Below, piece by piece: positions 1,122-11,470 of a stretch of 50,676 nt of DNA (within the stretch, counting starts at the first letter, position 1; every line of letters starts with the position of its first letter). The notes beneath the pieces are model-generated. The model saw only the letters and a program-made list of their open reading frames with translations, did no database searches and was not told the origin of the DNA. The stretch comes from a virus. The stretch lies in the IMG/VR virus record IMGVR_UViG_3300028025_003610, positions 1 through 50,676 of that record; one strand, written 5' to 3'. Position numbers and translations under genes: made by a program.

Positions 1122-1134
1122 AGTATCTACTTTA

Positions 1135-1341
1135 TCAGATTTGGTCGTAGTTGTCAAGGGCTTCTGGAAAGTCATCTGTAAATCCGTTCTTTGTGTAATG
1201 GTGGAATTTGAACCACCGTAGCATCTTATCGTTCATCTGTTCATTGAATGTATGGGCTGTGTGATTTGCTAACTCCACCTCGTTTAATCTGGTATCTGCA
1301 AACACCTTAGCCATTTTCTCTGCATCGTGTTTCTCTGCCAT
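1135..1341 (-). CDS. Hypothetical protein, 68 aa
   Basis: No family is recognised. The ATG follows directly on the TAA of the preceding gene (GATTAAATG), with AGGAGG and GGAG inside that gene's 3' end acting as ribosome binding sites, so translation is probably coupled. The N-terminal half is charged (MAEKHDAEKMAKVFADTRL); the C-terminal half carries aromatic and His residues. A copy of the left-arm promoter (1361-1382) lies 20 bases upstream, inside the preceding gene, and may give this gene its own transcript. Confidence 0.75.
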   Translation of the reverse strand: MAEKHDAEKMAKVFADTRLNEVELANHTAHTFNEQMNDKMLRWFKFHHYTKNGFTDDFPEALDNYDQI

Positions 1342-1524
1342 TTAATCTCCTGAACCTCCTAGTGTAGCACATAGGACTGACAATTCTAGTGGCTCTATGT
1401 AAGTGTCTAGCACTTCTGATAAGTTAGTTAATACTGCCCAAGTTAACTTGTCATCTTGTTTTTCCAGGGCACCCTCTAAGTTAGTAATGGTATGTCTAAT
1501 AAAACTGTTAATCTCTTCCTTCAT
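1342..1524 (-). CDS. Hypothetical protein, 60 aa
   Basis: No family is recognised. It starts MKEEINSFIRHTITNLEGAL at an ATG overlapping the upstream stop as TAATG. A GTG at 1536 would add four residues but is less likely than the coupled ATG. It is probably a small helical protein. Its last codons, for LSVLCATLGG, are also a promoter-like element (1361-1382), an example of regulatory and coding information sharing bases. Confidence 0.75.
   Translation of the reverse strand: MKEEINSFIRHTITNLEGALEKQDDKLTWAVLTNLSEVLDTYIEPLELSVLCATLGGSGD
1361..1382 (-). promoter_or_regulatory. Left-arm promoter copy inside a gene (one mismatch)
   Basis: Minus strand: TGTCAGTCC at 1374-1382, then TACACT at 1361-1366, with 11 bases between TGTCA and the hexamer as in twelve other copies. 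It differs from the family by one base (TGTCAGTCC for TGTCAGACC). It lies in the 3' end of the 60-aa gene and would serve the 68-aa gene. Confidence 0.5.
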
Positions 1525-1961
1525 TAGTCCCACCACCTGTCGTCCATGATGTAATCAATTGCGGCATCAACGGCTTCATAGAATGTGTCATAGACTTCAC
1601 CCATGTCATCGTTGTGTGCAAACACTTCCCACCAAGGATTCATACGATAGATTTCAAATCCACTATTACTAATAGTTTTAATAAACTGCATCAACTGTAC
1701 ATCATCGTTAATACCTGCAGCCTCTAAGTCATCTGAATATCTGACAATGGTAGCACCCTCATCTGATAGTTCACCATTAACTAAGTTTGGTAGTGTTAAG
1801 TGCATCTCACCATTACGTTCTATGTCTACAACTCTATCAAGGTATGTGACTTGAGCATAAGACTCTGCACCCTCCTGCCATACATAAAACTCTGGCATTT
1901 GCTTAGCGGTTGGTATTGTCTGTGTGTATTCTACTGTAACGCCTTCTAATGATTTAATCAT
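1524..1961 (-). CDS. Hypothetical protein, 145 aa
   Basis: No family is recognised. The start is the ATG at 1959-1961 (MIKSLEGVTVEYTQTI), preferred over an upstream in-frame start because GGAG precedes it by 8 bases and it overlaps the previous gene by 8 bases (ATGATTAA). The N-terminal two thirds look like alternating strands. The C-terminal part is acidic and aromatic, containing NPWWEVFAHNDD and ending in DDRWWD. It sits inside a chain of overlapping small genes that must be translated from one transcript. Confidence 0.8.
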   Translation of the reverse strand: MIKSLEGVTVEYTQTIPTAKQMPEFYVWQEGAESYAQVTYLDRVVDIERNGEMHLTLPNLVNGELSDEGATIVRYSDDLEAAGINDDVQLMQFIKTISNSGFEIYRMNPWWEVFAHNDDMGEVYDTFYEAVDAAIDYIMDDRWWD

Positions 1962-2139
1962 TGATAATCTCCGCACTTATTACGTCCATTAGTTCATTGT
2001 ATTTAACAAAACTAATAATGTCATCGTGGAAACAGGCTACTGCATATTCCATTAGTTCCTCATCTGTCATATCGTCATACCCTAGTGGGTCTAGTTCTGG
2101 TGTAGTATAAAATGTTATAGATGTTTTAACTGTTTTCAT
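1954..2139 (-). CDS. Hypothetical acidic protein, 61 aa
   Basis: No family is recognised. The ATG at 2139 has AGGATA about 7 bases upstream. The protein begins MKTVKTSITFYTTPELDPLG and continues with an acidic helical segment (DDMTDEELMEYAVACFHDD). Its 3' end overlaps the next gene by 8 bases. Confidence 0.75.
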   Translation of the reverse strand: MKTVKTSITFYTTPELDPLGYDDMTDEELMEYAVACFHDDIISFVKYNELMDVISAEIIND

Positions 2140-2151
2140 ATGCGTATCCTA

Positions 2152-2373
2152 TTACACTTTCTCTGGAATGTCAAGTCTTGTTATCTGGTAAGCCAGGATT
2201 TCTTCTAGCCTGTAATATTCAGCTTCTTGTTCGGAACCCTCTTCTAGATATTCCCAACGTCCTGTATCCTTGTTGTACATAATCTTGTCACGATCAAACT
2301 CTGATTCAGCATCAACCATAAATGCTCCCCAATGTTCATCGTATACAACTACCCAATGATATTGCTTACTCAT
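2152..2373 (-). CDS. Hypothetical protein, 73 aa
   Basis: No family is recognised. The start chosen is the ATG at 2371-2373 (MSKQYHWVVVYDEHWGAFMV), with TTAGGAG upstream; longer frames lack a binding site and would overlap the small zinc-ribbon gene heavily. The start overlaps the stop of that gene as ATGA. The N-terminal sequence looks like a short beta hairpin followed by an acidic, Tyr-rich helix. Confidence 0.8.
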   Translation of the reverse strand: MSKQYHWVVVYDEHWGAFMVDAESEFDRDKIMYNKDTGRWEYLEEGSEQEAEYYRLEEILAYQITRLDIPEKV

Positions 2374-2495
2374 ACTTCTACTTCTCCTAAATCCATTAGA
2401 TACTCTTCCTTGCCACACTCTATGCAACTAAACATTGGTTCATCTTCATACTCCAAGAATGTTACATCACACATACAACACTTAACCTTATTCAT
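2370..2495 (-). CDS. Zinc-ribbon microprotein, 41 aa
   Basis: The protein begins MNKVKCCMCDVTFLEYEDEP. Cys6/Cys9 and Cys24/Cys27 form two C-x2-C knuckles, as in rubredoxin-like or zinc-ribbon folds, so it probably binds one zinc. The start overlaps the upstream stop by 8 bases and its TGA overlaps the next ATG (ATGA), so it is locked into the operon on both sides. Its role is unknown; small ribbons of this type are common in actinophage genomes. Confidence 0.75.
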   Translation of the reverse strand: MNKVKCCMCDVTFLEYEDEPMFSCIECGKEEYLMDLGEVEV

Positions 2496-2736
2496 TAACA
2501 TCTACTTCAACTCCATAAGTCTCTATACCTGTCATGTATACATCTGTGTCTGCTGTGTCATCAATCTCATCATAACAACCAATGCTCTTGAAATAGTCCC
2601 ACATCTCTTGAATGTCATCACGGTCATTTTCATCAAAGTCTGGGTGTTGCTCTAGATAAGATAACCAAACATCATTAGGTACTTCCATACTCCAGACAGA
2701 TTCAAAACTGCCCTCAAAGATTCCTCTTAATTTCAT
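2488..2736 (-). CDS. Hypothetical acidic protein, 82 aa
   Basis: No family is recognised. It starts at ATG 2736 with GAGGTA upstream, just after the preceding stop (2739-2741). The composition is strongly acidic (ENDRDDIQEMWDYF, DEIDDTADTDVYM), so it could be a nucleic-acid mimic or an inhibitor, but this is only a guess from charge. Confidence 0.75.
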   Translation of the reverse strand: MKLRGIFEGSFESVWSMEVPNDVWLSYLEQHPDFDENDRDDIQEMWDYFKSIGCYDEIDDTADTDVYMTGIETYGVEVDVNE

Positions 2737-2738
2737 TA

Positions 2739-2960
2739 CTATACCTCGTGTACAATCACGTCTTGTAGGTACAAGACTTCTGGGTCAATCTTGTAATAAC
2801 TAATTAAACTATCTTTTGCTAGTTCAATAATAGATTCATCAGTAGGTTTCTGATAAAAGTTGATAGCAGACTCATCAGCAATAATGGATTCCTCTGCCTC
2901 TACGGTGGTAATAATTACCATACGCTCAAATACAAACTCTACGTTATAAGTGTTTTTCAT
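2739..2960 (-). CDS. Hypothetical protein, 73 aa
   Basis: No family is recognised. ATG at 2960. The N-terminal residues (MKNTYNVEFVFERMVIITTV) suggest a beta-strand pair, followed by a helix and a C-terminal strand (LYLQDVIVHEV). It belongs to the compact operon running from 3415 towards 882. Confidence 0.7.
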   Translation of the reverse strand: MKNTYNVEFVFERMVIITTVEAEESIIADESAINFYQKPTDESIIELAKDSLISYYKIDPEVLYLQDVIVHEV

Positions 2961-2972
2961 AGTGCTAACCTA

Positions 2973-3248
2973 TCACACTTGTGGGTAATTGTCAAGGATT
3001 TCGTGCTTATTTCTTGCAAAGAACAGATCAGTTCCGTCCTCATCTTTAATGCTAATCTGTGCAGGTACATCATACTTGTCCAGGAAAAGGTGGTGTTCAA
3101 TCTGCCACTCTTGATCTTTAACAAACTCAATCATAGCCTCATGTGAAATAGGATAACCATGAATACCATACTCTCCTGTATCTAGCATCATCTTAATTAA
3201 GTCTGCTTCTTGATAAATAACTTCTGTTGTTGCTACTAAGTACGTCAT
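2973..3248 (-). CDS. Hypothetical protein, 91 aa
   Basis: No family is recognised. The ATG at 3248 overlaps the preceding stop as TAATG, so translation is probably coupled. It has an acidic/aromatic helical N-terminus (MTYLVATTEVIYQEADLIKM), a central IEHHLFLDKYDVPAQISIKD segment and a charged C-terminus. No metal-binding motif or membrane segment is seen. Confidence 0.75.
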   Translation of the reverse strand: MTYLVATTEVIYQEADLIKMMLDTGEYGIHGYPISHEAMIEFVKDQEWQIEHHLFLDKYDVPAQISIKDEDGTDLFFARNKHEILDNYPQV

Positions 3249-3415
3249 TACTTCTTACCACCAATTCTAATTTCTACTACTTCTTCTGTGTGATAGAAAT
3301 GCTTTACAAACTTGTAAGCAGTTTCCCATTGTTCTAACTCAATACCACCAACTCTATGCAAATCAACAAAGTCGTCTGCTAGTGTTTGTAGTAAAGGATT
3401 CTCTGTGTCAATCAT
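3248..3415 (-). CDS. Hypothetical protein, 55 aa, first gene of its operon
   Basis: It starts MIDTENPLLQTLADDFVDLH at ATG 3413-3415 with AAAGGA 7 bases upstream; a longer frame to 3493 would run through the promoter and is rejected. It is 30 bases downstream of the promoter at 3445-3466, and so is the first gene of the long minus-strand operon that reaches 882. No family is recognised. Confidence 0.75.
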   Translation of the reverse strand: MIDTENPLLQTLADDFVDLHRVGGIELEQWETAYKFVKHFYHTEEVVEIRIGGKK

Positions 3416-3444
3416 GTTTGTCCTTTTGTAGGTTGATACTGTGT

Positions 3445-3538
3445 ATCCTACCACATGGGTCTGACATTTTCTGTGATTTCCGTGAATTTGCACTTAATGT
3501 CGTAATAAGATAGCTAAGACTATTAAAAATCCGCATGC
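3445..3538 (-). promoter_or_regulatory. Promoter island: TGTCAGACC promoter plus GCATGC box
   Basis: On the minus strand: TGTCAGACC (3458-3466), 11 bases from TGTCA to the -10 hexamer TAGGAT (3445-3450), and then the 55-aa gene. Upstream are the island words TTTCCGTGA (3478-3486, plus-strand reading), TCGTAA (3500-3505) and GCATGC (3533-3538), with a T run (ATTTTTAA) after GCATGCGG. Confidence 0.7.
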
Positions 3539-3566
3539 CCGAAAGCTGATCAGATGTCAAGATGGG

Positions 3567-3589
3567 TGAGCAGTTTTAATTCATGCTCA
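3567..3589 (-). repeat. Conserved stem-loop after the DUF932 gene
   Basis: TGAGCA (3567-3572) and TGCTCA (3584-3589) form a 6-bp stem with an 11-base loop just downstream of the DUF932 stop. The same stem with the same flanks (GGGTGAGCAGTTT and TGCTCAGGA) recurs at 6524-6554. No T run follows, so it is more likely an RNA-processing or stability element than an intrinsic terminator. Confidence 0.5.
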
Positions 3590-3599
3590 GGAATTTTAT

Positions 3600-4589
3600 T
3601 TATGCTAGGGCAACCTCACGCACAATGGATAGCAACTTGTTTTTCTCTGCAGTAACAACAGGGTCAAAACCTGATGCACTTGCAAGGATTCCCTCATTGT
3701 TTCCTCCACGAGGGTTACGGTACCAATCTAGGCGTTCTGTAAGAGTATTGAAAGCACCCCAAGCAGTGGTATTAATCATTGAGTTAGTATCGGAAACAAA
3801 AATTTCCTCAAGCAGTTCAATTTTGTTTTCCCACTTAGTCATAGCACCCTTAGTATCTTTGCTAGGCATTGGGTAAGCGGTTGCAACAATCTTATCAAAA
3901 GTTGCCTTAGTGATTTCAGTTTCAATAAGTTCCTTAGCCATTTTGTCAAACTCGTCCATGTAAGTATTGGCAAGACCTAGTGCTTCTCGTGCAACCATGA
4001 TACGACCCTCAAGTGTTGAGGTGTGTCGCATCTTGAAAGACTGCTTGACACCACGAAGAGCAAGGTCAAGAGTATTTGCACAAACAACACGAACAGGTGT
4101 TACCGATGCACGAACAGCAAGGGAACCGTCATGTGATGTATTTACAAGTAAGTAAGACTTCACAACATCTGCAACGCCATTAGGGTCAAGTACGGTCTCA
4201 CGCTCAAGAGCAAGAGAGCCAAACACAACACGACCATTCTTTAATGAACCAGCAGTTTCCCAACGAGCACCGTCAAGAAGATTATCTGCAAAAGCAAATA
4301 GTTCTTCATTCTGTAAAGTTTGGTAACGCTCACCAACAACTGCTAGAACATCTGGGTGTCCGTCCTCTGGGTGGTCACGAACAACAAGAAAGTTAGATTT
4401 GCTTGATGTGTAATCTTCAGGTAGTGGAACATCTTCAAGACGTACATTCCAGTTTGACAAGTTAGCGATGTCCATAACTTCACTTGTAGTGTGTTCTTCA
4501 TTGACAACAGTTCCTAGACCATGCCACGCTGGTTCACGAAATGAATACATAGAGCCTACACCGTTAATAATTTCGACTGCATCAGCCAC
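3600..4589 (-). CDS. DUF932 / TIGR03299 phage-plasmid protein, 329 aa
   Basis: The sequence matches the DUF932 (phage/plasmid-like TIGR03299) family: an N-terminal SFREPAWHGLGTVV segment near residues 16-29, a central VGERYQTLQNEELF near 85-98, RVVCANTLDLAL near 167-178, and a helical C-terminus. Its length is usual for the family. The molecular function is not established; members are common in phages and plasmids of many hosts. The start is a GTG (4587-4589) with AGGAG 6 bases upstream. It has its own promoter (4626-4647), and a conserved stem-loop follows the stop. It is the largest gene of the left arm. Confidence 0.88.
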   Translation of the reverse strand: MADAVEIINGVGSMYSFREPAWHGLGTVVNEEHTTSEVMDIANLSNWNVRLEDVPLPEDYTSSKSNFLVVRDHPEDGHPDVLAVVGERYQTLQNEELFAFADNLLDGARWETAGSLKNGRVVFGSLALERETVLDPNGVADVVKSYLLVNTSHDGSLAVRASVTPVRVVCANTLDLALRGVKQSFKMRHTSTLEGRIMVAREALGLANTYMDEFDKMAKELIETEITKATFDKIVATAYPMPSKDTKGAMTKWENKIELLEEIFVSDTNSMINTTAWGAFNTLTERLDWYRNPRGGNNEGILASASGFDPVVTAEKNKLLSIVREVALA

Positions 4590-4625
4590 GTTTTTCTCCT
4601 ATGAGGTAGTTTGTTTAATAGTCTT

Positions 4626-4727
4626 ACTATACACTATAGGTCTGACAATTTTATTAGATACCCCATGATTTCAGTGTTATTTAGATCACATCGTAACAGC
4701 TTGACAAATACTAAAAAACGGGCATGC
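4626..4727 (-). promoter_or_regulatory. Promoter island with CRP/GlxR-like site (DUF932 gene)
   Basis: Minus strand: TGTCAGACC at 4639-4647, 11 bases from TGTCA to TATAGT at 4626-4631, and the gene 37 bases on. TGTTA-TTTAGA-TCACA at 4675-4690 matches the CRP/GlxR consensus with one mismatch, centred about 64 bases upstream of the predicted transcription start. Further up are TCGTAA, TTTGTCAA (4701-4708) and GCATGC (4722-4727). Confidence 0.68.
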
Positions 4728-4742
4728 GATTTTCTGGCATAG

Positions 4743-4770
4743 AAAAACCCCCTGCAGGGAAGACAGGGGG
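4743..4770 (-). terminator. Intrinsic terminator after the 53-aa gene
   Basis: Minus strand: CCCCCTG and CAGGGGG (7-bp stem, 4748-4754 with 4764-4770), 9-base loop, then TTTTT. It closes the unit of the 53-aa gene and lies just upstream of the DUF932 island. Confidence 0.85.
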
Positions 4771-4787
4771 TAAATCTATTTATTTAA

Positions 4788-4949
4788 TTAACGAGCGACC
4801 ACATAAGGTAGTTCACGTTCGTTATTCTTCATCTGACGCTTGGACACATTGTCTACAAAGTGACCCTTAGCATCTCGTACAACTACACGCTGGCTCTTAC
4901 CAAAACGTGTGTTCCACTTTTCTTCTGCGATAAATAGCTTCTTTGCCAT
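4788..4949 (-). CDS. Hypothetical basic protein, 53 aa
   Basis: ATG at 4947-4949 preceded by AAAAGAGAAAT. The protein begins MAKKLFIAEEKWNTRFGKSQ and continues with VVVRDAKGHFVDNVSKRQ; it is basic with a predicted strand-turn-strand core, so nucleic-acid binding is possible but not shown. It is followed by a strong terminator. No family is recognised. Confidence 0.75.
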   Translation of the reverse strand: MAKKLFIAEEKWNTRFGKSQRVVVRDAKGHFVDNVSKRQMKNNERELPYVVAR

Positions 4950-5022
4950 TTTTTATTTCTCTTTTCTATTAGGTGGTGGACAGTTTAGTGTGGTGCCCAG
5001 CACTTCCTACCTACTAGGAAAT

Positions 5023-5511
5023 CTAGTATAGTTCTCTGATTGAGTCAATTTCTGCATCAGATTCTTCAATCTCATAGTCAGATTCATTTGATTCAATTGT
5101 GATGTCAAAGTCATAGACACTTAGGTCGTCTACATCTTTATCCATTGGAATAGTGATTGTTGCTTTGATTGTTACATTGAATTCAACATCAACAGTCTTG
5201 TGCAAGTCAATTCCAAGAATTCTTGCAATCTCATCTGCGTGTTCTGAACCAATTTCATCATAGTTCTCAACAAGGTATTCCTTAACCTTGTCTTGTGCTC
5301 GTGAGTTCCTGTCGTTAGTTTCTTTGAGTGCATCTGCTTTCCAATAAGTTCTTGAAATGTCATCTGCTGTTACGGTTGCGTATTCTGCATTTGCTGGTGT
5401 GCCATAGTAGTAACCCTTTTTGATAAGCATCTCTGCATTAGGGTCATAGGACGGTGTTAGTGCTACCTGCTCTTGCATTGGTGTTACACTTGCTGGGATT
5501 GGAAAGTCCAC
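5023..5511 (-). CDS. Hypothetical protein, 162 aa, acidic C-terminus
   Basis: The start is GTG 5509-5511, three bases of non-overlap after the previous stop, with AAGGAG upstream. The N-terminal part (residues 1-60) is Pro/Tyr-rich (SYDPNAEMLIKKGYYYGTPA). A helix with AQDKVKEYLVENYDEIGSEH follows, then paired strands (VDVEFNVTIKATITIPMDKD) and a very acidic tail. It reads like a small two-domain protein with a beta sandwich. It can be transcribed from the promoter inside the preceding gene (5545-5566). No family is recognised. Confidence 0.8.
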   Translation of the reverse strand: MDFPIPASVTPMQEQVALTPSYDPNAEMLIKKGYYYGTPANAEYATVTADDISRTYWKADALKETNDRNSRAQDKVKEYLVENYDEIGSEHADEIARILGIDLHKTVDVEFNVTIKATITIPMDKDVDDLSVYDFDITIESNESDYEIEESDAEIDSIRELY

Positions 5512-5513
5512 GT

Positions 5514-6314
5514 TTATTCTCCTTGTAGGTTGGTTGTTGAAACTAGTGTATCAGAGAGGTCTGACAATTCTTGCCATTCCTCCTCATCAGAATTCCATCT
5601 GTATTGGTTGGTATCCACAGGGCAGTCCTCAAAAGCATACTCAATGTCGTCATACTCGCAACGACATTCTCTTTCCAGTGCCTCGTAGTCTGCGTGAGAC
5701 ATTGGAATGTCATACTCATTACAGGCAATGTCTTCTCCACCTAAGAATGTGCAACTGCCTCCCCAACCTTGTTCTTCTTCATACTCATAGTCAAACTCAA
5801 GAGTTGGGTATTGTTCTGATAGTTTAATTAGAACCTCACCAACAGGACTCCAAGCGGTTTGGAAATGGTACATAACAGAACCATCATCATTAACTGTCAT
5901 TGTGGTATCTGAATAGTCTTTGTTATTAACAACTGCTACGTCCCACTTAGTTCCCCAGTTACGGCAGTTCCAATGATACCAGTCTTGGTCTTCTTTCATA
6001 GAGCGAACAAACTCTGTCATAAAAGATTCACCATCAAATTTTCCATCATCATCTTTTTTGATGTTCTTGTTACCCTTGTAAACATCATCACCATAGTAAG
6101 CCTCAAGGTCTGTTGGTTTTACAATGTTCCAAAAAGCAAAGACAGGATTATCATAGACTTGAACATCAGGAAAGTTTTCCCACTGCTTTGTTTCCTGATT
6201 AAACTTGTGGTCAGGGAAATGCTTTACGAATGGCTGATTAAGTTGTGCAACCATCTTATCTAATTCTGATTTCTCACCTGATACAACAAGTGAATTAAAT
6301 ACCCAGTTTGGCAT
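5514..6314 (-). CDS. Api92-like (DUF1281) protein, 266 aa
   Basis: It starts MPNWVFNSLVVSGEKSEL, which with HWNCRNWGTKWD (about residues 115-126) and FQTAWSPVGEVL (about 152-163) gives the hallmarks of the Api92-like/DUF1281 family, whose members have a ferredoxin-like fold domain and unknown function. The usual length is 150-250; here the C-terminus is long and acidic with CRCEYDDIEYAFEDCP. The last codons (ELSDLSDTL) double as a TGTCAGACC-type promoter for the next gene. Its own promoter is at 6345-6366. Confidence 0.85.
   Translation of the reverse strand: MPNWVFNSLVVSGEKSELDKMVAQLNQPFVKHFPDHKFNQETKQWENFPDVQVYDNPVFAFWNIVKPTDLEAYYGDDVYKGNKNIKKDDDGKFDGESFMTEFVRSMKEDQDWYHWNCRNWGTKWDVAVVNNKDYSDTTMTVNDDGSVMYHFQTAWSPVGEVLIKLSEQYPTLEFDYEYEEEQGWGGSCTFLGGEDIACNEYDIPMSHADYEALERECRCEYDDIEYAFEDCPVDTNQYRWNSDEEEWQELSDLSDTLVSTTNLQGE
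5545..5566 (-). promoter_or_regulatory. Left-arm promoter copy inside the Api92-like gene
   Basis: Minus strand: TGTCAGACC (5558-5566), 11 bases from TGTCA to TACACT (5545-5550), then the GTG of the 162-aa gene 34 bases on. The whole element lies within the 3' coding part of the Api92-like gene. Confidence 0.65.
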
Positions 6315-6344
6315 TTGTACTTCTTTCTAGTAGGTTATGATTAC

Positions 6345-6366
6345 ATCATAGCATAGGGGTCTGACA
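6345..6366 (-). promoter_or_regulatory. Left-arm promoter of the Api92-like gene
   Basis: Minus strand: TGTCAGACCCC (6356-6366), 11 bases from TGTCA to TATGAT (6345-6350), with TGC just before the hexamer as in an extended -10. The start codon is 31 bases downstream. Island words TCGTAG and TAATGTC lie at 6387-6400. Confidence 0.72.
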
Positions 6367-6407
6367 TTTCTGGTGATTTCAGCGACTTCGTAGTAATGTC
6401 TTAAAGC

Positions 6408-6434
6408 TTGACAAATCTTTAAAATCGGGCATGC
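6408..6434 (-). repeat. Island box pair: TTTGTCAA and GGGCATGCCC
   Basis: The minus strand reads GGGCATGCCC, GATTTTAAAGA, TTTGTCAAG. The same two boxes with 13-14 bases between them recur at 4701-4727, 7440-7467 and 8735-8762. Here the palindrome begins 10 bases after the tRNA 3' end and is followed by GATTTT, so it may help end the tRNA transcript. Confidence 0.6.
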
Positions 6435-6443
6435 CCCTTTTTG

Positions 6444-6517
6444 CGATCTGTATGGGACTTGAACCCACAACCTCTACCGTGACAGGGTAGTGCTCTAACC
6501 AATTGAGCTAACAGACC
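6444..6517 (-). tRNA. tRNA-Asp (GUC)
   Basis: The minus strand folds into a full cloverleaf of 74 nt: acceptor GGTCTGT with ACAGATC (one G-T pair), D arm around TAGCTCAATTGGTTAGAGC, anticodon stem CTACC/GGTAG with loop CTGTCAC (anticodon GTC), and T arm GTGGG-TTCAAGT-CCCAT. The discriminator is G and CCA is not encoded. It sits after the 158-aa gene and is probably processed from that gene's transcript. Confidence 0.95.
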
Positions 6518-6523
6518 AGAGGG

Positions 6524-6554
6524 TGAGCAGTTTATAGTCTGGGTATGGTGCTCA
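6524..6554 (-). repeat. Conserved stem-loop between the 158-aa gene and tRNA
   Basis: TGAGCA (6524-6529) pairs with TGCTCA (6549-6554); flanks match the copy at 3567-3589. Placed 7 bases from the tRNA 5' end, it could mark a processing point. A second small inverted repeat (ACCTGC/GCAGGT, about 6576-6596) lies nearer the preceding gene. The rest of 6518-6614 holds no gene. Confidence 0.45.
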
Positions 6555-6614
6555 GGACTGGCTCCTTTATTTTACCTGCGTGACTGTAGCAGGTTTTGGT
6601 TTCGGTTTAACCTA

Positions 6615-7091
6615 CTACCAAGATGCTTGGTACTCAAAGTAATCAAACTTGCTTTCAAGGCAACGATTAATAATTCCAATAGTGTCATTCAAGTCACCAA
6701 AGTAGTATTTATCATAGTCAGTAGAGCCAAAGAAGAAACCACTACCTGTTGGTAAAATGTATGGTGCATTTTCTGGTACTGCAATAGCCTCAATACATAA
6801 TTCTTTTAATTGTTCTAAATCTTCTCTACGAACAAGAATTGGCTGACATTCATCAACACCGTCTGCTAAGTTATTTACAAACCAATGATGAATCATATTT
6901 GATTTACGCCAGTAACCCATTGGCACATCAACAGAGATGCCAGCAAAGCCAGTCTTATCAATTACATCTTCTAACTCAAGACGACTAACGATTTCATTGA
7001 AGAGAGGATTGATTGTGTCCTCATCAGTTTGGCGGTTAAAGTTATGACGGTACACATATTCACTTGCACGAAGGTACATATCTAAGCCCAT
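6615..7091 (-). CDS. Conserved phage protein, MGLDMYL family, 158 aa
   Basis: The N-terminus MGLDMYLRASEYVYRH, the central MGYWRKSNMIHHWFVNN (about residues 58-74) and LPTGSGFFFGSTDYDKYY (about 112-129) mark a widespread phage/bacterial family of unknown function, annotated only as hypothetical. Its length is normal. The ATG at 7091 follows AGAAAGAAG. The gene has its own promoter (7127-7148) and probably shares a transcript with the tRNA-Asp downstream. Confidence 0.82.
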   Translation of the reverse strand: MGLDMYLRASEYVYRHNFNRQTDEDTINPLFNEIVSRLELEDVIDKTGFAGISVDVPMGYWRKSNMIHHWFVNNLADGVDECQPILVRREDLEQLKELCIEAIAVPENAPYILPTGSGFFFGSTDYDKYYFGDLNDTIGIINRCLESKFDYFEYQASW

Positions 7092-7126
7092 TGTGTTCTT
7101 CTTTCTGTAGGTAGGTTATTAAAATA

Positions 7127-7163
7127 ATCTTAGCATAGGGGTCTGACAGTTTTGCCAGACCCC
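7127..7163 (-). promoter_or_regulatory. Left-arm promoter with an overlapping 8-bp inverted repeat
   Basis: Minus strand: TGTCAGACC (7140-7148), 11 bases from TGTCA to TAAGAT (7127-7132), gene 36 bases on. GGGGTCTG (7138-7145) and CAGACCCC (7156-7163) form a perfect 8-bp inverted repeat that includes the TGTCAGACC box, so the box could be masked in RNA or serve as a dyad operator. It is only 10 bases below the stop of the 51-aa gene. Confidence 0.65.
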
Positions 7164-7173
7164 ACAACTAAAA

Positions 7174-7329
7174 CTACTTTACAGTAGTCCAACGGTCTTG
7201 ACCATTTACGTCAAGGCGAATACGGAGTGAGCCAGTAGTATTTTTGATTACTTCCTGAACTGTTCCTGTTACGCCTGACTTTGCAGTTGTGAACTGTGAG
7301 CCAACAGTTGGTGCTTGGATTTTTTCCAT
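7174..7329 (-). CDS. Hypothetical protein, 51 aa
   Basis: ATG at 7327-7329 with AAGAGAAG upstream. It begins MEKIQAPTVGSQFTTAKSG; the rest (VQEVIKNTTGSLRIRLDVNG) reads as a small all-beta, SH3-like barrel. No family name can be given. It is 35 bases downstream of the promoter at 7364-7385, which carries a perfect CRP/GlxR-type site. Confidence 0.75.
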   Translation of the reverse strand: MEKIQAPTVGSQFTTAKSGVTGTVQEVIKNTTGSLRIRLDVNGQDRWTTVK

Positions 7330-7363
7330 TTGCTTCTCTTTTCTATGTTGTTGTTATGGTAAC

Positions 7364-7467
7364 ATCTTAGCACACGGGTCTGACAATTTATGCAGTTTCC
7401 GTGATAATTCTAGTGTGATCCTAATCACATTCGTAAGACTTGACAAAGCTCTAAAATGGGGGCATGC
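7364..7467 (-). promoter_or_regulatory. Promoter island with perfect CRP/GlxR site
   Basis: Minus strand: TGTCAGACC (7377-7385), 11 bases from TGTCA to TAAGAT (7364-7369). TGTGA-TCCTAA-TCACA lies at 7414-7429, an exact consensus site centred about 64 bases upstream of the predicted start, the classical position for a CRP-type class I activator. TCGTAA, TTTGTCAA (7440-7447) and GCATGC (7462-7467) complete the island. Confidence 0.7.
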
Positions 7468-7475
7468 CACTTTCT

Positions 7476-7691
7476 TCAGTCAAACTGAAGAAGCGACACA
7501 CAGTCATCATCAGATAAAGAGTAGCACAACTCATCATCTTCAAATAAATCTAAGAAGAATAAATCATATCCATCTGGTGTTGGCTCTGTGCGAGTGATGG
7601 TAACAATATCACCGTTAGGAAGTTTTACCATATCGCCAGGCTCAATTGTCATACCAACCAGCTTATCTATTTCCTTATAATCTGTAATCAT
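7476..7691 (-). CDS. Hypothetical protein, 71 aa
   Basis: The chosen start is ATG 7689-7691, with AAAGGAGA about 9 bases upstream; a longer frame to 7781 ignores that site. The protein begins MITDYKEIDKLVGMTIEPGD, continues VKLPNGDIVTITRTEPTPDG, and ends in an acidic tail with two Cys. The MTIEPGDMVKLPNGD part resembles a small beta-barrel. It overlaps the 43-aa membrane microprotein upstream. No family is recognised. Confidence 0.75.
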   Translation of the reverse strand: MITDYKEIDKLVGMTIEPGDMVKLPNGDIVTITRTEPTPDGYDLFFLDLFEDDELCYSLSDDDCVSLLQFD

Positions 7692-7806
7692 TAAAATGAT
7701 CTCCTTTGTCTTTGTGACTTTTACTTGAATCTCCCTCGCCAATTCCATTGGCAGAGAATACTCCAAATAAGAATAACACAATTAGAATAAATAAAAAGAT
7801 TTCCAA
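7675..7806 (-). CDS. Membrane microprotein, 43 aa
   Basis: A TTG start (7804-7806) directly follows the TAA of the previous gene, with AGAGAAAG upstream. Residues 2-17 (EIFLFILIVLFLFGVF) form one strongly hydrophobic segment; the rest is soluble and charged (EGDSSKSHKDKGDHF). It overlaps the next gene by 17 bases. Its role is unknown; a single-span inner-membrane peptide is all that can be claimed. Confidence 0.6.
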   Translation of the reverse strand: MEIFLFILIVLFLFGVFSANGIGEGDSSKSHKDKGDHFNDYRL

Positions 7807-7929
7807 TTAAACACTTTCTCTTAGACGTAGGTACTCAATGTATGTTTTATCTGATGCCATTTCTGACATCAACCTGTCTAGTATAGCGTATGGGTCTGAC
7901 ATTTCTTGTTTACGATTAAATAGTTTCAT
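7807..7929 (-). CDS. Hypothetical microprotein, 40 aa
   Basis: ATG 7927-7929 overlaps the previous stop as ATGA, which supports translation. It begins MKLFNRKQEMSDPYAILDRL and ends YIEYLRLRESV; amphipathic helix. Codons 10-17 (MSDPYAIL) are also the promoter TGTCAGACC-TATACT (7880-7901). An inner ATG (7860) would give a 17-residue version from that promoter. Confidence 0.6.
   Translation of the reverse strand: MKLFNRKQEMSDPYAILDRLMSEMASDKTYIEYLRLRESV
7880..7901 (-). promoter_or_regulatory. Left-arm promoter copy inside the 40-aa gene
   Basis: Minus strand: TGTCAGACC (7893-7901), 11 bases from TGTCA to TATACT (7880-7885). It would start transcription near 7873, giving a transcript for the 43-aa membrane protein and the 71-aa gene. 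It is fully contained in coding sequence. Confidence 0.62.
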
Positions 7930-8033
7930 CTCTTGTACCAATCATCTTGTTTTAGTATGGTTAGGTTTAGAACAATTCCTACGATTACGATACCTGCAAA
8001 TATTCCTGCGGTAAATGCTAGTGCTAGAGCCAT
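7926..8033 (-). CDS. Membrane microprotein, 35 aa
   Basis: It begins MALALAFTAGIFAGIVIVGI, a single transmembrane segment of about 25 residues, then a short polar end (KQDDWYKR). Start at 8033 lies inside the end of the previous gene; its stop overlaps the next ATG (ATGA). It is the second of two membrane microproteins in this operon. Confidence 0.65.
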   Translation of the reverse strand: MALALAFTAGIFAGIVIVGIVLNLTILKQDDWYKR

Positions 8034-8173
8034 TCTGCTAAATCTCCATCTGCAATTTCTGAATAGTCCATACCATTTGCTTCTGCAATTGCTTCCCATA
8101 CATCTTGCTCATTATAGATTCCATCTGGATGCCATTCCGATAGAATCATTTCAACTGTTTTCATTTTTCCCAT
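8024..8173 (-). CDS. Hypothetical acidic protein, 49 aa
   Basis: The ATG at 8173 overlaps the previous stop as TAATG and has AAAGGATG upstream. It begins MGKMKTVEMILSEWHPDGIY and continues as an acidic helical protein (EIADGDLAEWL). No family is recognised. Confidence 0.75.
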   Translation of the reverse strand: MGKMKTVEMILSEWHPDGIYNEQDVWEAIAEANGMDYSEIADGDLAEWL

Positions 8174-8511
8174 TATGCGTACATCCTTTCATAGAATGAG
8201 ATTGTTTCTTGATTGTCTAAATCTGTAATTGTGTTATGTAATAAATCTAATACAACTGTTTTATCAAATCCCTTGCCAACGTGGTCACGACCAATTGCAT
8301 AGATACCATAGCCAGTTTCATCCATAACCTCATCTTTAATCAGGTATGAGACAATCATACGGGTAAAGTATGAATGGTCGCCTAAACGTTTTTTAGCGTG
8401 GTCTAATGCACCTGCTAAATCATCTTGCCAAGTATCTTCACCCCAATGGGAATAAAGTACGGCTAAGGATTCTGTTCCGTCATCAAATACGAAATTAATT
8501 CTTGCACCCAT
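8173..8511 (-). CDS. Conserved hypothetical phage protein, 112 aa
   Basis: It begins MGARINFVFDDGTESLAVLY, then SHWGEDTWQDDLAGALDHAK; this N-terminal pattern recurs in phage hypothetical proteins, but I know no function. The fold looks alpha/beta. Stop and start of neighbours overlap (TAATG downstream; one base gap upstream), so it is the core of the 8644-to-7476 operon. Confidence 0.78.
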   Translation of the reverse strand: MGARINFVFDDGTESLAVLYSHWGEDTWQDDLAGALDHAKKRLGDHSYFTRMIVSYLIKDEVMDETGYGIYAIGRDHVGKGFDKTVVLDLLHNTITDLDNQETISFYERMYA

Positions 8512-8512
8512 T

Positions 8513-8644
8513 TTAGTAACCTGCTTCCGTTAGCATTTTGTCAATTGCTTTTATTTCTTCTTCGGATAATCTATCTAATGCACTCTCATCAATAACGGCA
8601 TCAAATAAGTTAATCATCTTATCTACAAACTGTTGGTCTGTCAT
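8513..8644 (-). CDS. Hypothetical acidic helical protein, 43 aa
   Basis: ATG 8642-8644 with AAGAGAAA upstream; first gene after the promoter at 8673-8694. It begins MTDQQFVDKMINLFDAVIDE; two short amphipathic helices. No family is recognised. Confidence 0.72.
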   Translation of the reverse strand: MTDQQFVDKMINLFDAVIDESALDRLSEEEIKAIDKMLTEAGY

Positions 8645-8672
8645 TTTTTCTCTTTCTTAGTAGGTATCTTTG

Positions 8673-8694
8673 ATACTACCACAAGGGTCTGACA
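8673..8694 (-). promoter_or_regulatory. Left-arm promoter (8644 operon)
   Basis: Minus strand: TGTCAGACC (8686-8694), 11 bases from TGTCA to TAGTAT (8673-8678). The first start codon is 29 bases downstream. It serves a chain of at least seven overlapping small genes. Confidence 0.7.
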
Positions 8695-8734
8695 TTTTTA
8701 GTGTTTTCAGTGACGTTTTCTTAAATTTCTTAAC

Positions 8735-8768
8735 TTGACAAAGCTCAGAAAAAGGGGCATGCCCCTTT
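8735..8768 (-). terminator. GCATGC island box that folds as a terminator
   Basis: AAAGGGGCATGCCCCTTT (8751-8768) is a perfect 18-bp palindrome. As RNA it gives a 7-bp stem with a CATG loop, followed on the minus strand by TTCTGAG, so the U run is CUUUUUCU. TTTGTCAA follows at 8735-8742. This copy ends the unit of the 101-aa gene. Other GCATGC copies are weaker hairpins but keep a T run. Confidence 0.65.
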
Positions 8769-8787
8769 CGGGGTGGAATGTCAAGCG

Positions 8788-9093
8788 TCACTCCATATCC
8801 TGGTACTCGTATTCTTCATAGTAGTCATCGTCTTGCATTACCCAAGGATCCAATCGGTGTTGCTCAATAATTGCGTGAGCAGGTGCAGTATCATTACCAC
8901 GATAAGAAACTCCTTCAGGCATTTCTATTTCAGCATAGATATCTTCATTCCAATAAGCATTAATAGCGTCAACGCAAGGTTGCACCATTGAAAGTGGAAT
9001 AGGTGGATAGAAATTAGAACGCAAGTGAATACCGATCTGATCTTCCATTGTCATTTCTAGTTCGCCAATTGCCATTGCAGTCATTAGTCCCAT
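8788..9093 (-). CDS. Hypothetical acidic protein, 101 aa
   Basis: ATG 9093 with AAGGAG 8 bases upstream. It begins MGLMTAMAIGELEMTMEDQI; the middle has Pro-rich YPPIPLSMVQPCVDAINAYW and the end is very acidic and Tyr-rich (DDDYYEEYEYQDME). No family is recognised. It is the last gene of the 9475 unit, followed by the palindromic terminator. Confidence 0.75.
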   Translation of the reverse strand: MGLMTAMAIGELEMTMEDQIGIHLRSNFYPPIPLSMVQPCVDAINAYWNEDIYAEIEMPEGVSYRGNDTAPAHAIIEQHRLDPWVMQDDDYYEEYEYQDME

Positions 9094-9095
9094 AA

Positions 9096-9227
9096 TTATT
9101 CTCCTTGTAGGTTTTTGTGTTTTGTCTTGCGTGTGTATTTCTTTTTGTTGCGGTGTTTAGCGGATGCATTGCTCCTACGCAATTCTAGTCTTGCCCTAAG
9201 TTGCTCAGGGGTTGCAATAAATTTCAT
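9096..9227 (-). CDS. Basic microprotein, 43 aa
   Basis: ATG 9227 overlaps the previous stop as TAATG. It begins MKFIATPEQLRARLELRRSN and ends in a Lys/Arg/His-rich tail (HRNKKKYTRKTKHK). The strong positive charge suggests RNA or DNA binding; this is inference from composition only. Confidence 0.7.
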   Translation of the reverse strand: MKFIATPEQLRARLELRRSNASAKHRNKKKYTRKTKHKNLQGE

Positions 9228-9475
9228 TACTCATCCCAACTAGCAAAGTTATCCATAATGCAGAAACAATCGTTGCACATTCCAGAAATGAAACGCTCAC
9301 GGATACCTGCATCATAGTCTTTCAATACATCTTGAGCATAAGCACCTTGGTGGTATGCAAATAGTTGTTCAGAAGAAATTGAAACTGTCTTAGTTTCTTT
9401 ACAAGCAGGGCAAGGTAGGGATGTAACGACATAGCGTTCGTTCATCACTTTCATTGGATTAGTTAGAGTGAACAC
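9227..9475 (-). CDS. Zinc-ribbon protein of a common actinophage type, 82 aa
   Basis: The start is GTG 9473-9475, with AAAGGGA upstream; the inner ATG has no binding site. C-P-A-C (residues 22-25) and C-N-D-C-F-C (about 67-72) form a four-Cys zinc site, separated by an acidic helical insert with RERFISGM before the second knuckle. Small proteins with CPxC, a LFAYxQGA helix and RERFISG-C are widespread in actinobacteriophages; no function is established. The promoter is at 9506-9527. Confidence 0.8.
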   Translation of the reverse strand: MFTLTNPMKVMNERYVVTSLPCPACKETKTVSISSEQLFAYHQGAYAQDVLKDYDAGIRERFISGMCNDCFCIMDNFASWDE

Positions 9476-9505
9476 AAGTGTCCCTTTCGTAGTAGGTATG
9501 CCTTC

Positions 9506-9594
9506 AGCATAGCATAGAGGTCTGACAATTTCAGTGAGTTTTTCAGTGTTGTTTTAATCGTGTCGTAACTTGACAAAGCTGGGAAAATCGGCAA
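9506..9594 (-). promoter_or_regulatory. Promoter island of the zinc-ribbon gene
   Basis: Minus strand: TGTCAGACC (9519-9527), 11 bases from TGTCA to TATGCT (9506-9511), start codon 31 bases on. Upstream are two TTTCAGTG-like words, TCGTAA (9563-9568) and TTTGTCAA (9570-9577). The GCATGC box has become GCAAGC (9591-9596). Confidence 0.68.
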
Positions 9595-9601
9595 GCGTGT
9601 C

Positions 9602-9629
9602 GTCCACAGGCTGGGGATAACCTGTGGAC
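9602..9629. repeat. 9-bp inverted repeat enclosing a DnaA-like box
   Basis: GTCCACAGG (9602-9610) and CCTGTGGAC (9621-9629) form a perfect stem. The 10-base loop contains GGGGATAA, part of TTATCCCCA (9612-9620, minus strand), one mismatch from the DnaA box TTATCCACA. It sits just below the IF2_N gene and could be a hairpin terminator, an origin element, or both. Confidence 0.5.
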
Positions 9630-9635
9630 AATTGC

Positions 9636-9827
9636 TTAGAATGGTGGTGTTGCCCAATACGGAACAAAATCCTTAAACGATTCGTTAATACGGTCAATGA
9701 CAACCTCACCAAATACATCTTCAACGCTTGATGATGCACTCTTGACGGGTTGCCCAATGTATTCTAAATACATTCTGACATCTTTTGACGGAATGTTTAA
9801 TTCCTTAGCAATTTCATAGACTCTCAT
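9636..9827 (-). CDS. Stand-alone IF-2 N-terminal (IF2_N) domain protein, 63 aa
   Basis: MRVYEIAKELNIPSKDVRMY followed by LEYIGQPVKSASSSVED matches the IF2_N helical domain found at the N-terminus of bacterial translation initiation factor IF-2 (typical MRVYELAKEL...KSASSS pattern). Only this domain is present: no G domain follows, and the remainder (FGEVVIDRINESFKDF) is a short helix. It could bind nucleic acid, the ribosome or a host partner of IF-2; none of this is shown by sequence. ATG 9827, GCAGG upstream, three bases after the previous stop. Confidence 0.82.
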   Translation of the reverse strand: MRVYEIAKELNIPSKDVRMYLEYIGQPVKSASSSVEDVFGEVVIDRINESFKDFVPYWATPPF

Positions 9828-9829
9828 AA

Positions 9830-10015
9830 TTAACCTGCCACAACTTCAATGGTTGCCCAAAATTGGTTGCGTGGATAAGTTTCATTCTCAACTTCAATTT
9901 TGTAGTTGTCGCTGTAATCAACCTTTTCAGCGTAGATAATTTTGCCCTCAAGGTTGCGAGAGCCTGAACGATAGTGAGAGCCTACTAGCATCTCACTTAC
10001 AGTTAGTGAATACAT
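9830..10015 (-). CDS. Hypothetical protein, 61 aa
   Basis: ATG 10015 with AAAGGAA upstream. It begins MYSLTVSEMLVGSHYRSGSR and continues as strands (KIIYAEKVDYSDNYKIEVEN); a small beta-barrel is likely. It is the first longer gene after the promoter at 10113-10134, separated by a 98-base leader with a duplicated 16-mer. It pairs with the IF2_N gene three bases downstream. Confidence 0.75.
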   Translation of the reverse strand: MYSLTVSEMLVGSHYRSGSRNLEGKIIYAEKVDYSDNYKIEVENETYPRNQFWATIEVVAG

Positions 10016-10043
10016 TTTGTATTCCTTTCGTTAGTGTTAAGTC

Positions 10044-10087
10044 TTATTTGCTAGGCTCACCGTAGGTAGGATTATTTGCTAGGCTCA
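10044..10087 (-). repeat. 16-bp direct repeat in the leader of the 61-aa gene
   Basis: TTATTTGCTAGGCTCA occurs at 10044-10059 and again at 10072-10087 (28-base period). It lies wholly in the transcribed leader. A binding site for a regulator or a recent short duplication are both possible. Confidence 0.75.
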
Positions 10088-10088
10088 T
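10044..10088 (-). CDS. Possible leader peptide, 14 aa
   Basis: ATG 10086-10088 to TAA 10044-10046 encodes MSLANNPTYGEPSK. It begins 25 bases after the promoter -10 element, close to the 29-37 bases seen for other first genes of the arm, and the two halves are made by the duplicated 16-mer. No clear ribosome binding site is seen, so the peptide is only a possibility. Confidence 0.3.
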   Translation of the reverse strand: MSLANNPTYGEPSK

Positions 10089-10112
10089 ACTTAACTATTT
10101 ATTTATAGTTTC

Positions 10113-10134
10113 ACTTTAGCAGAGGGGTCTGACA
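10113..10134 (-). promoter_or_regulatory. Left-arm promoter (61-aa and IF2_N genes)
   Basis: Minus strand: TGTCAGACC (10126-10134), 11 bases from TGTCA to TAAAGT (10113-10118). A GCATGC box lies upstream at 10249-10254, farther away than in other islands because DnaA-box-like DNA is inserted between. Confidence 0.68.
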
Positions 10135-10181
10135 TTTTTGGGACTTTTGAGCGTGTCTAAGGTAAACATTTGGTAAACTTT

Positions 10182-10234
10182 TTATCCACAGATTTTCAGT
10201 GAGTTATACACAGGCTCTTAACAATTGTGGATAA
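10182..10234. other. Cluster of three DnaA-box-like 9-mers
   Basis: TTATCCACA at 10182-10190 (exact consensus), TTATACACA at 10204-10212 (one mismatch) and TTATCCACA on the minus strand at 10226-10234 (exact). Three boxes in 53 bases is far above chance. Together with 9612-9620 and 11222-11253 they mark a candidate origin region. Confidence 0.6.
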
Positions 10235-10303
10235 CCTGTGGAAAACGGGCATGCCAAAATTTCTGAGAATGTCAAACGACACGCCCAGAAGCTTTGGATT
10301 TTT

Positions 10304-10384
10304 TTAGTCTGTAAATTTATCTACAAGCAAATAAACAAAACCTGCAAGAGAAAAAATTAAGATCCAAGAATAAAAACTATTCAT
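10304..10384 (-). CDS. Membrane microprotein, 26 aa
   Basis: ATG 10382-10384 with GAGGAGA upstream, directly after the previous stop (TAAATG). It begins MNSFYSWILIFSLAGFVYLL and ends VDKFTD: one transmembrane helix with a few polar residues. It is the last gene of the 10892 unit. Confidence 0.65.
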   Translation of the reverse strand: MNSFYSWILIFSLAGFVYLLVDKFTD

Positions 10385-10537
10385 TTAGTATTCTCCTCTC
10401 ATCACAAATGCAAACGAATGTTTTCCTAAATCAAAAATCAGGGAAGTATTTTTGCGACCTAGTTTTTTACTGTAGTAATTTGAAAAACTAATTCCAATTA
10501 CGAAAGTTCCGTCAATTTTATTATGTACGAATTTCAT
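10385..10537 (-). CDS. Hypothetical basic protein, 50 aa
   Basis: ATG 10537 overlaps the previous stop as TAATG. It begins MKFVHNKIDGTFVIGISFSN and ends HSFAFVMRGEY; mostly beta and basic in the middle (YYSKKLGRKN). No family is recognised. Confidence 0.7.
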   Translation of the reverse strand: MKFVHNKIDGTFVIGISFSNYYSKKLGRKNTSLIFDLGKHSFAFVMRGEY

Positions 10538-10704
10538 TATTTAATTACCGCATCTCTGAATCGTGTTAAATCAAAATTAGGATTATCCCTTTTGAAAAAT
10601 GTTTGAAAGTCTGAAAGCAAATCCTCAAAGGTGTGTGCTTCAATGTCTAAGTGATAAGCGTTTAGAATTTCCGCTATCTTTACATAGTCTTTTCTAGTCA
10701 TCAT
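10537..10704 (-). CDS. Conserved small phage protein, MTRKDY type, 55 aa
   Basis: ATG 10702-10704 overlaps the previous stop (TAATG); a second ATG follows at once. It begins MMTRKDYVKIAEILNAYHLD. The MTRKDY-x-x-IA start recurs in small phage proteins from many hosts; function unknown. All-helical. Confidence 0.75.
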   Translation of the reverse strand: MMTRKDYVKIAEILNAYHLDIEAHTFEDLLSDFQTFFKRDNPNFDLTRFRDAVIK

Positions 10705-10892
10705 TATTTAACCACTTTCCAACCTGTTAGGGGATTGCGATACAGTTCTACCTGTTCGCCTGTTTCGTTATTGACTACCTCGCAAGTTATACCTGCACCG
10801 TCATAGCAAGAGGCAACCATTCCAAGAGCGGAATGAATGGAGATGTATTCGTTAGAGATGTTATCTCTCTTATTTGTTACAGTGTAAGTCAT
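10704..10892 (-). CDS. Hypothetical protein, 62 aa
   Basis: ATG 10892 with AAAGGTAG upstream, 34 bases after the promoter at 10926-10947. It begins MTYTVTNKRDNISNEYISIH and ends RNPLTGWKVVK. The ETGEQVELYRNPLTGW pattern suggests a beta-rich fold. First gene of a four-gene unit with coupled starts. Confidence 0.75.
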   Translation of the reverse strand: MTYTVTNKRDNISNEYISIHSALGMVASCYDGAGITCEVVNNETGEQVELYRNPLTGWKVVK

Positions 10893-10925
10893 TTTGTGAC
10901 TACCTTTCTTTTGTTTGTTGATTTG

Positions 10926-10947
10926 ATTCTAGCATAGAGGTCTGACA
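10926..10947 (-). promoter_or_regulatory. Left-arm promoter (10892 operon)
   Basis: Minus strand: TGTCAGACC (10939-10947), 11 bases from TGTCA to TAGAAT (10926-10931), with TGC before the hexamer. It begins 4 bases below the stop of the 47-aa gene, with no other island words. Confidence 0.7.
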
Positions 10948-10950
10948 AAA

Positions 10951-11094
10951 CTAATCTAGTTCGCCATAGAGTTTGACATAATCAGACTTAGACAAGATGC
11001 CCTTGTATGTATCACAGCAGAACATCTGGTCATCTGCCCAATCTTGTAAACAGAATACGCAGATGTACTCTTCGGTATTTAGTAGGTTAAACAT
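10951..11094 (-). CDS. Cysteine-rich microprotein, 47 aa
   Basis: ATG 11092-11094, with GGGGTTAGAA upstream. It begins MFNLLNTEEYICVFCLQDWA. Cys12/Cys15 form a C-x2-C knuckle and Cys26-Cys27 follow, so a metal site is likely though not a standard ribbon. First minus-strand gene next to the switch region; promoter at 11124-11145. Confidence 0.7.
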   Translation of the reverse strand: MFNLLNTEEYICVFCLQDWADDQMFCCDTYKGILSKSDYVKLYGELD

Positions 11095-11123
11095 TTCTAA
11101 CCCCTTTCTTTATCTATGCTTAC

Positions 11124-11189
11124 AGCCTAGCATAGGGGTCTGACAATTTCTCGTGTTTGCCGTGTATTTATCTTATGACCTTAATCACA
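11124..11189 (-). promoter_or_regulatory. Promoter with CRP/GlxR-like site (47-aa gene)
   Basis: Minus strand: TGTCAGACC (11137-11145), 11 bases from TGTCA to TAGGCT (11124-11129), start codon 30 bases on. TATGA-CCTTAA-TCACA at 11174-11189 is one mismatch from TGTGA-N6-TCACA and is centred about 64 bases upstream of the predicted start, the same place as in the 7364 island. Confidence 0.65.
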
Positions 11190-11221
11190 TTAATTGCGAC
11201 ACGCCCGACCCCGCCAGCGAG

Positions 11222-11253: not shown

Positions 11254-11300
11254 AGAATTAACCTACTGTTAACCTTAGACACGCCCTATTTGGCAGAAAT

Positions 11301-11322
11301 TGTCGGTGGGGTGTGTTAGGTT
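11301..11322 (+). promoter_or_regulatory. Possible plus-strand promoter of the same design
   Basis: TGTCG (11301-11305), 11 bases, TAGGTT (11317-11322), with TGT before the hexamer. This repeats the spacing of the left-arm promoters in the opposite direction, 36 bases before the 36-aa gene, but lacks the GACC part of the box. Confidence 0.4.
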
Positions 11323-11357
11323 AAGACTATTAGATAAACAAAAGAAAGGTTAGTTCA

Positions 11358-11468: not shown

Positions 11469-11470
11469 TT

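Follow-up and report, generated by a model that had tools for sequence, protein, structure and literature searches.

Putative PafBC-type promoters ahead of the leftward gene block of a presumed freshwater actinophage

The window analysed here, i.e., the whole 50.7 kb stretch of viral DNA of IMG/VR record IMGVR_UViG_3300028025_003610, carries an array of promoters of one design, in which a TGTC(A/G)G box stands at a fixed distance ahead of a TANNNT hexamer. We consider it probable that these are PafBC-type -26 box promoters, which serve the early or early/middle gene block of the phage and are read by sigma-A polymerase together with the PafBC activator of the host. PafBC is the main DNA-damage activator of mycobacteria. 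The promoter design as such has been described before, but phage promoter arrays built on it are, as far as can be told, new: a search of the open literature, with little coverage of subscription papers and preprints, gave no report of phage promoters of the PafBC type.

Promoter array of the window

A preliminary description of this DNA had listed 13 minus-strand copies of TGTCAG(A/T)CC-N7-TANNNT, and all of them were found where it had placed them (Table 1). The expected number is 0.01 and none of 100 shuffles reached 13, so that its dismissal of chance as the source of the array stands. The fixed spacing that it reported is equally exact in our count: 10 nt separate TGTCAG from TANNNT in 13/13 copies, and among the 19 occurrences of TGTCAG at positions 1-12000 of the window 13 have TANNNT at precisely this distance. 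The triplet TGC, described as frequent ahead of the hexamer, is present in 8 of the 13 minus-strand promoters, and TGN in 11. The flanking DNA varies from copy to copy. As to the start codons, which had been placed 20-37 bases downstream of most copies, they follow the hexamer by 19-36 nt in 11 cases out of 13 and by 97 nt at 10113, whereas no clear start could be recognized behind the promoter at 7880.

The promoters lack a -35 element: the best matches to TTGACA at spacers of 16-19 average 2.86/6, as compared with 2.83/6 at random places. Ordinary sigma-70 promoters were rejected as a candidate both on these grounds and by a scan, which gave 26 of them and 46.8, i.e., more, in shuffled sequences.

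The array was also scanned for with a profile of 26 columns, trained on 564 sites of other phage contigs, the close relative L013 being left out. Over 50 kb the 13 known copies score 21.7-30.8, and a site on the plus strand, absent from the preliminary list, scores 17.4; after these 14 sites the next best score in the window is 3.6, and the best scores across five shuffles are 8-14.5. The additional promoter reads TTGTCGGTG-GGGTGTGT-TAGGTT. The core of the box is TGTCGG in this promoter and TGTCAG in the other 13; the tail is ACC in 12 of the 14, TCC in one and TGG in one, and 13 of the promoters have A or T directly ahead of the box.

Table 1. Promoters of the array, in window coordinates
Promoter	Position	Strand	Downstream start and remarks
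TGTCGGTGG-N7-TAGGTT (promoter 14)	11301..11322	+	36-aa ORF 35 nt on; divergent from the others; canonical PafBC form
TGTCAGACC-N7-TAGGCT	11124..11145	-	ATG 29 nt on (47 aa)
TGTCAGACC-N7-TAGAAT	10926..10947	-	ATG 33 nt on (62 aa)
TGTCAGACC-N7-TAAAGT	10113..10134	-	97-nt leader to ATG (61 aa); tandem GAGCCTAGCAAATAA element; kept in L013
TGTCAGACC-N7-TATGCT	9506..9527	-	GTG 30 nt on (82 aa); kept in L013
TGTCAGACC-N7-TAGTAT	8673..8694	-	ATG 28 nt on (43 aa); kept in L013
TGTCAGACC-N7-TATACT	7880..7901	-	no clear downstream start
TGTCAGACC-N7-TAAGAT	7364..7385	-	ATG 34 nt on (51 aa); kept in L013
TGTCAGACC-N7-TAAGAT	7127..7148	-	ATG 35 nt on (158 aa); kept in L013
TGTCAGACC-N7-TATGAT	6345..6366	-	ATG 30 nt on (266 aa, DUF1281_C); kept in L013
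TGTCAGACC-N7-TACACT	5545..5566	-	GTG 33 nt on (162 aa); within 3' end of preceding gene; kept in L013
TGTCAGACC-N7-TATAGT	4626..4647	-	GTG 36 nt on (329 aa, DUF932); kept in L013
TGTCAGACC-N7-TAGGAT	3445..3466	-	ATG 29 nt on (55 aa); kept in L013
TGTCAGTCC-N7-TACACT	1361..1382	-	ATG 19 nt on (68 aa)

The consensus published for actinobacterial PafBC promoters, also called RecA-NDp, is tTGTCRgtg-8 nt-TAnnnT (PMC5656591). When aligned from the first T, the window sequences, written as TTGTCAGAC-N8-TANNNT, stand in the same register as this consensus in all 14 promoters, and the one at 11301 fits it exactly. The box lies about 20-28 bases ahead of the inferred start, in agreement with the PafBC-specific -26 motif, which is bound by PafB, while region 4 of sigma-A is held by PafC and ssDNA activates PafBC (PMC11804915). 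Both groups of promoters share the TTGTC(A/G)G core, the distance of 17 nt between the first base of this core and TAnnnT, the lack of a -35 element and an asymmetric, single-copy box. They differ in that the promoters of the window head an array of phage genes and not repair genes, and in that 12 of the 14 window boxes end with ACC, in contrast to the weakly conserved gtg of the published consensus. Judging from sequence, the assignment of the phage promoters to the PafBC class is well supported. Its main loose end is the ACC tail, a form rare in host genomes and dominant in the window phage, which may represent a stronger or differently regulated variant of the box or may reflect the action of a phage factor.

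Conservation and spread among phages

The contig L013, a 14-kb metagenomic phage sequence, has orthologous genes behind orthologous promoters. For nine promoter pairs the identity between it and the window is 36% over 57 bases upstream, 95% over AAA and the box, 100% at TA--T and 65% downstream, with the reservation that the L013 sites were chosen by TGTCAG-N10-TANNNT, which partly presets the invariant positions and leaves the free box positions and the flanking AAA unconstrained. The retention of the box and the -10 hexamer amid diverged upstream DNA is the pattern left by a functional element, and it speaks against a recent expansion of a repeat.

The design is widespread in metagenomic phage sequences. 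A scan of IMG/VR for TGTCAGACC-N4-TGN-TANNNT matched at least 120 stretches, and 46 of the 120 listed hold 2-10 copies; the reversed pattern, used as a control, also matched at least 120 stretches, each of the 120 listed having exactly one copy. The density of TGTCRG-N10-TANNNT is 6.4 per 10 kb in the 120 listed forward loci vs. 0.14 in the control loci, a ratio that is inflated because the forward loci were selected for at least one match; the multiplicity of the sites is not explained by this selection. In the listed loci with at least five sites, 553 of 570 sites lie on one strand. Twenty-five larger phage records contain 287 matches to the same pattern, concentrated in a single stretch or in a few, as compared with 34 matches to the reversed pattern. 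The form TGTCRGTG was found 292 times in the 120 listed phage loci, TANNNT following exactly 8 nt on in 251 cases; it coexists with TGTCAGACC in the same phage contigs, and sibling contigs mix the ACC and TGG/TGC tails at identical spacing. The spacing of 10 nt between TGTCRG and the hexamer recurs at 442 sites outside the window.

The layout of the window (small leftward genes, then glycosyltransferase, ribonucleotide reductase, portal, protease and capsid) is the same as that of Streptomyces phage Angela (Samistivirus, Stanwilliamsviridae), whose DUF932 homologue is 54.7% identical to the one encoded in the window. However, the leftward genes of Angela have no TGTCRG-N10-TANNNT array, and several of them are preceded by a TTG-type -35 element with a TG-TAGACT -10 element. 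The array was likewise not found in the stretches read of Annadreamy and of the Rhodococcus phages Grayson and Dorin, nor in those of DUF932-bearing phages of Microbacterium, Mycobacterium, Arthrobacter and Gordonia; within the stretches read, this rules out the motif as a general property of the phage family. The preliminary description had made its reading depend on the presence of the motif ahead of genes in relatives: it is there in the metagenomic relatives and missing from those cultured Streptomyces and Rhodococcus phages of this kinship that were examined. The layout, together with the cultured relatives, suggests by analogy that the block under these promoters is an early one.

Likely host and candidate reader of the box

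A match to the strict pattern in genome contigs led us to a genome of the Nanopelagicaceae. In 151 Nanopelagicales genomes, TGTCRGTGN5TGNTANNNT has 69 matches vs. 2 for the reversed pattern. Many of these sites precede recA (Pfam RecA) and are directly followed by a LexA-box-like palindrome, cgaacagatgttcg; others precede carD (Pfam CarD). Paired control of recA by PafBC and LexA is the mycobacterial arrangement. The exact TGTCAGACC was discarded as a common host motif, given that the strict pattern gave just 14 stretches in all genome contigs and the host form is mostly TGTCRGTG. Genes with a WYL domain are present in 41/41 Nanopelagicales genomes tested, in most of them as an adjacent pair, and one such pair matches the structures of PafB and PafC (PDB 6sj9, 7p5x, 9fnd); the identification came from this PDB search, no NCBIfam model having matched the host PafB/PafC proteins. 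In another genome (locus L196) TatC adjoins the gene.

The host of the window phage is presumably a member of the Nanopelagicales or a similar actinobacterium. WhiB, a family regarded as exclusive to actinobacteria and the phages that infect them (PMC10202952, PMC6802176), is encoded in 16 of the 25 motif-bearing phage records; the window record, a fragment, gave no WhiB match.

The proposed mechanism is as follows. The housekeeping sigma-A polymerase of the host would recognize the extended -10 element (TGn-TAnnnT), and the TGTCAGACC/TGTCRGTG box, standing in the place of -35, would be bound by the helix-turn-helix of the PafB part of host PafBC, with PafC holding region 4 of sigma (sigma adaptation). 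Since PafBC is activated by ssDNA, the phage block would fire once the infection makes ssDNA. An action of PafBC on boxes with the ACC tail, like the timing of expression of the block, is inferred. It should be noted that for a lytic phage to rely on a damage-induced activator of its host would be unusual; this counts against the PafBC reading, and so do the ACC tail of most window boxes and the lack of the array in cultured relatives of the Stanwilliamsviridae type and of Rhodococcus. Of the options left by the preliminary description, an activator working with an extended -10 element is the favoured one, while a different sigma factor finds no counterpart above the Sigma70_r4 cut-off in any of the 25 phage records; a sigma factor of the phage itself was rejected by the same count, the records being possibly incomplete. 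A phage WYL activator was rejected as well, as none of the 25 motif-bearing records has a WYL domain.

The main competing explanation is that a phage-encoded factor, be it WhiB, a small helix-turn-helix protein resembling sigma region 4 or an activator of another kind, reads the box, its likeness to PafBC sites being a result of convergence or mimicry, as with MotA/AsiA. We regard it as rather unlikely. The frequency of WhiB in the phage records speaks for it, as does the prevalence of the ACC box in the window phage, and weak, below-cut-off Sigma70_r4-like stretches occur in 11/25 records, most of them in frames of 47-66 aa. However, these stretches nowhere rise to a match above the cut-off, and the exact host form TGTCRGTG is present in these phages at the exact host spacing. 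WhiB itself is unlikely to be the reader because the cultured Streptomyces and Rhodococcus relatives, which are free of the motif, carry it too. Still less probable, in our opinion, is that the promoters are plain extended -10 promoters served by sigma-A alone and that the box is an operator of a phage repressor. Fixed operators are known in actinophages, and extended -10 promoters, to which the 11 copies with TGN would correspond, are able to work without -35; however, an operator does not need the base-exact spacing observed both throughout the window and at the 442 sites elsewhere, and the same arrangement precedes recA in the presumed host order and is an activator site in mycobacteria.

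The suggestion that ClgR, an XRE-type activator, reads the promoters instead of PafBC appears very improbable. ClgR is reported to recognize the same RecA-independent motif in mycobacteria, and PMC5656591 refers to Wang et al. 2011 on its recognition of the P1 promoter; however, in the structural work it is PafB that occupies the -26 motif, together with sigma-A, in a complex that needs this promoter and ssDNA (PMC11804915), and the box is positioned where the PafBC-sigma assembly requires it. As for chance or a repeat artefact, the probability seems to us negligible: nothing favours it beyond the modest information content of TANNNT, and against it stand the shuffle expectation, the abrupt fall of the profile score after the 14 sites, the differing flanks of the copies and the divergence of the upstream DNA from L013.

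Known systems and wider meaning

The nearest functional parallel are the middle promoters of phage T4, with a MotA box at about -30 and appropriation of sigma by AsiA/MotA (PMC6755090). In both cases a box replaces the -35 element, the housekeeping sigma keeps its (often extended) -10 element, and a class of phage genes is served. The difference is that T4 brings its own factors, whereas the factor proposed for the window is that of the host; by inspection, the box sequence and its position differ too, and the window promoters are not members of the T4 class. Temperate-phage genes under SOS control resemble the proposed system in that phage expression is coupled to DNA damage in the host. Their LexA/RecA switches act by release from repression, in contrast to the direct activator site proposed here.

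Should the PafBC reading be true, the window would provide the first known case of a phage programme wired to a damage-response activator of the host and not to the release of LexA, and the PafBC design would be a standard early-block promoter across many phage contigs of the freshwater type. The reading predicts that pafBC and ssDNA are needed for early transcription of the phage, and the motif would help to predict, from sequence, the promoters of uncultured actinophages and the hosts that they infect. More tentatively, and with slightly less than even confidence, we propose that in a large group of freshwater actinophages the early block has come under host PafBC, which would act as an ssDNA sensor telling the phage of the onset of infection or replication, and that dozens of phage sites would draw PafBC and polymerase off the repair genes of the host.

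Sites of a similar kind were observed in another lineage. Four high-GC MAGs assigned to 'Deltaproteobacteria'/Myxococcales have 3-6 sites of the TGTCAG(A/G)CC type each, as compared with 0-1 in the control, and the genes behind them include those of SSB, a RecA-like (ImuA-like) protein, FtsK and peptide deformylase. Given these genes, a box of similar type may be a feature of DNA-damage promoters in bacteria other than actinobacteria as well.

Leader and intergenic elements of the leftward block

The leader downstream of the promoter at 10113 carries GAGCCTAGCAAATAA twice in tandem, with AT in front of one copy and GT in front of the other, so that each could encode MSLANK followed by a stop codon. 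Among the matches listed, GAGCCTAGCAAATAA occurs in 38 copies spread over 25 of the 120 loci that match the promoter pattern, and no copy was found among the 120 listed control loci from the reversed-pattern scan. It is either a conserved leader element or a pair of tiny putative ORFs.

The recurrent intergenic element has a GGGCATGCCC palindrome, behind which most copies carry TTTGTCAAG and many also TTACGA; the element may combine a terminator and an operator in one. The TTATCCACA / TGTGGATAA clusters are a possible replication origin, or possibly serve a control linked to DnaA. As to the coding content of the block, an IF2_N domain is odd for a phage early gene.

Features of the leftward block (window coordinates)
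Feature	Position	Strand	Context
Tandem GAGCCTAGCAAATAA pair, two copies	10050-10100	-	leader downstream of promoter at 10113
DnaA-box-like TTATCCACA / TGTGGATAA clusters	about 9600-9660, 10160-10240, 11215-11260		between transcription units
Recurrent intergenic element	4698-4734, 6406-6442, 7438-7474, 8733-8769, 10233-10255		5' of promoters
tRNA-Asp (gtc)	6443-6517	-	within leftward block
63-aa protein, IF2_N domain	9636-9827	-	

Candidate phage transcription factors

Weak matches to a sigma-region-4-like HTH, all below the Sigma70_r4 profile threshold, were obtained in G175, G171, G168 and eight more phage records (loci L433-L435). The frames are small (47-66 aa in most cases) and are candidate phage transcription factors.

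A similar box in other metagenomic contigs

Six promoters of the form TGTCAGACC-N7-TATAAT are present in L137, a Tara Red Sea contig binned with Acidiferrobacteraceae. In most of them TTGACT or TTGACA abuts the box on its 5' side, giving a 17-nt spacer, so that these promoters combine the -26 box with a normal -35. Promoters of the TGTCAGACC type were also found in high-GC Deltaproteobacteria/Myxococcales MAGs (G003-G006, loci L146-L162), where the genes behind them include ssb, ftsK and a RecA-like ImuA candidate, among others.
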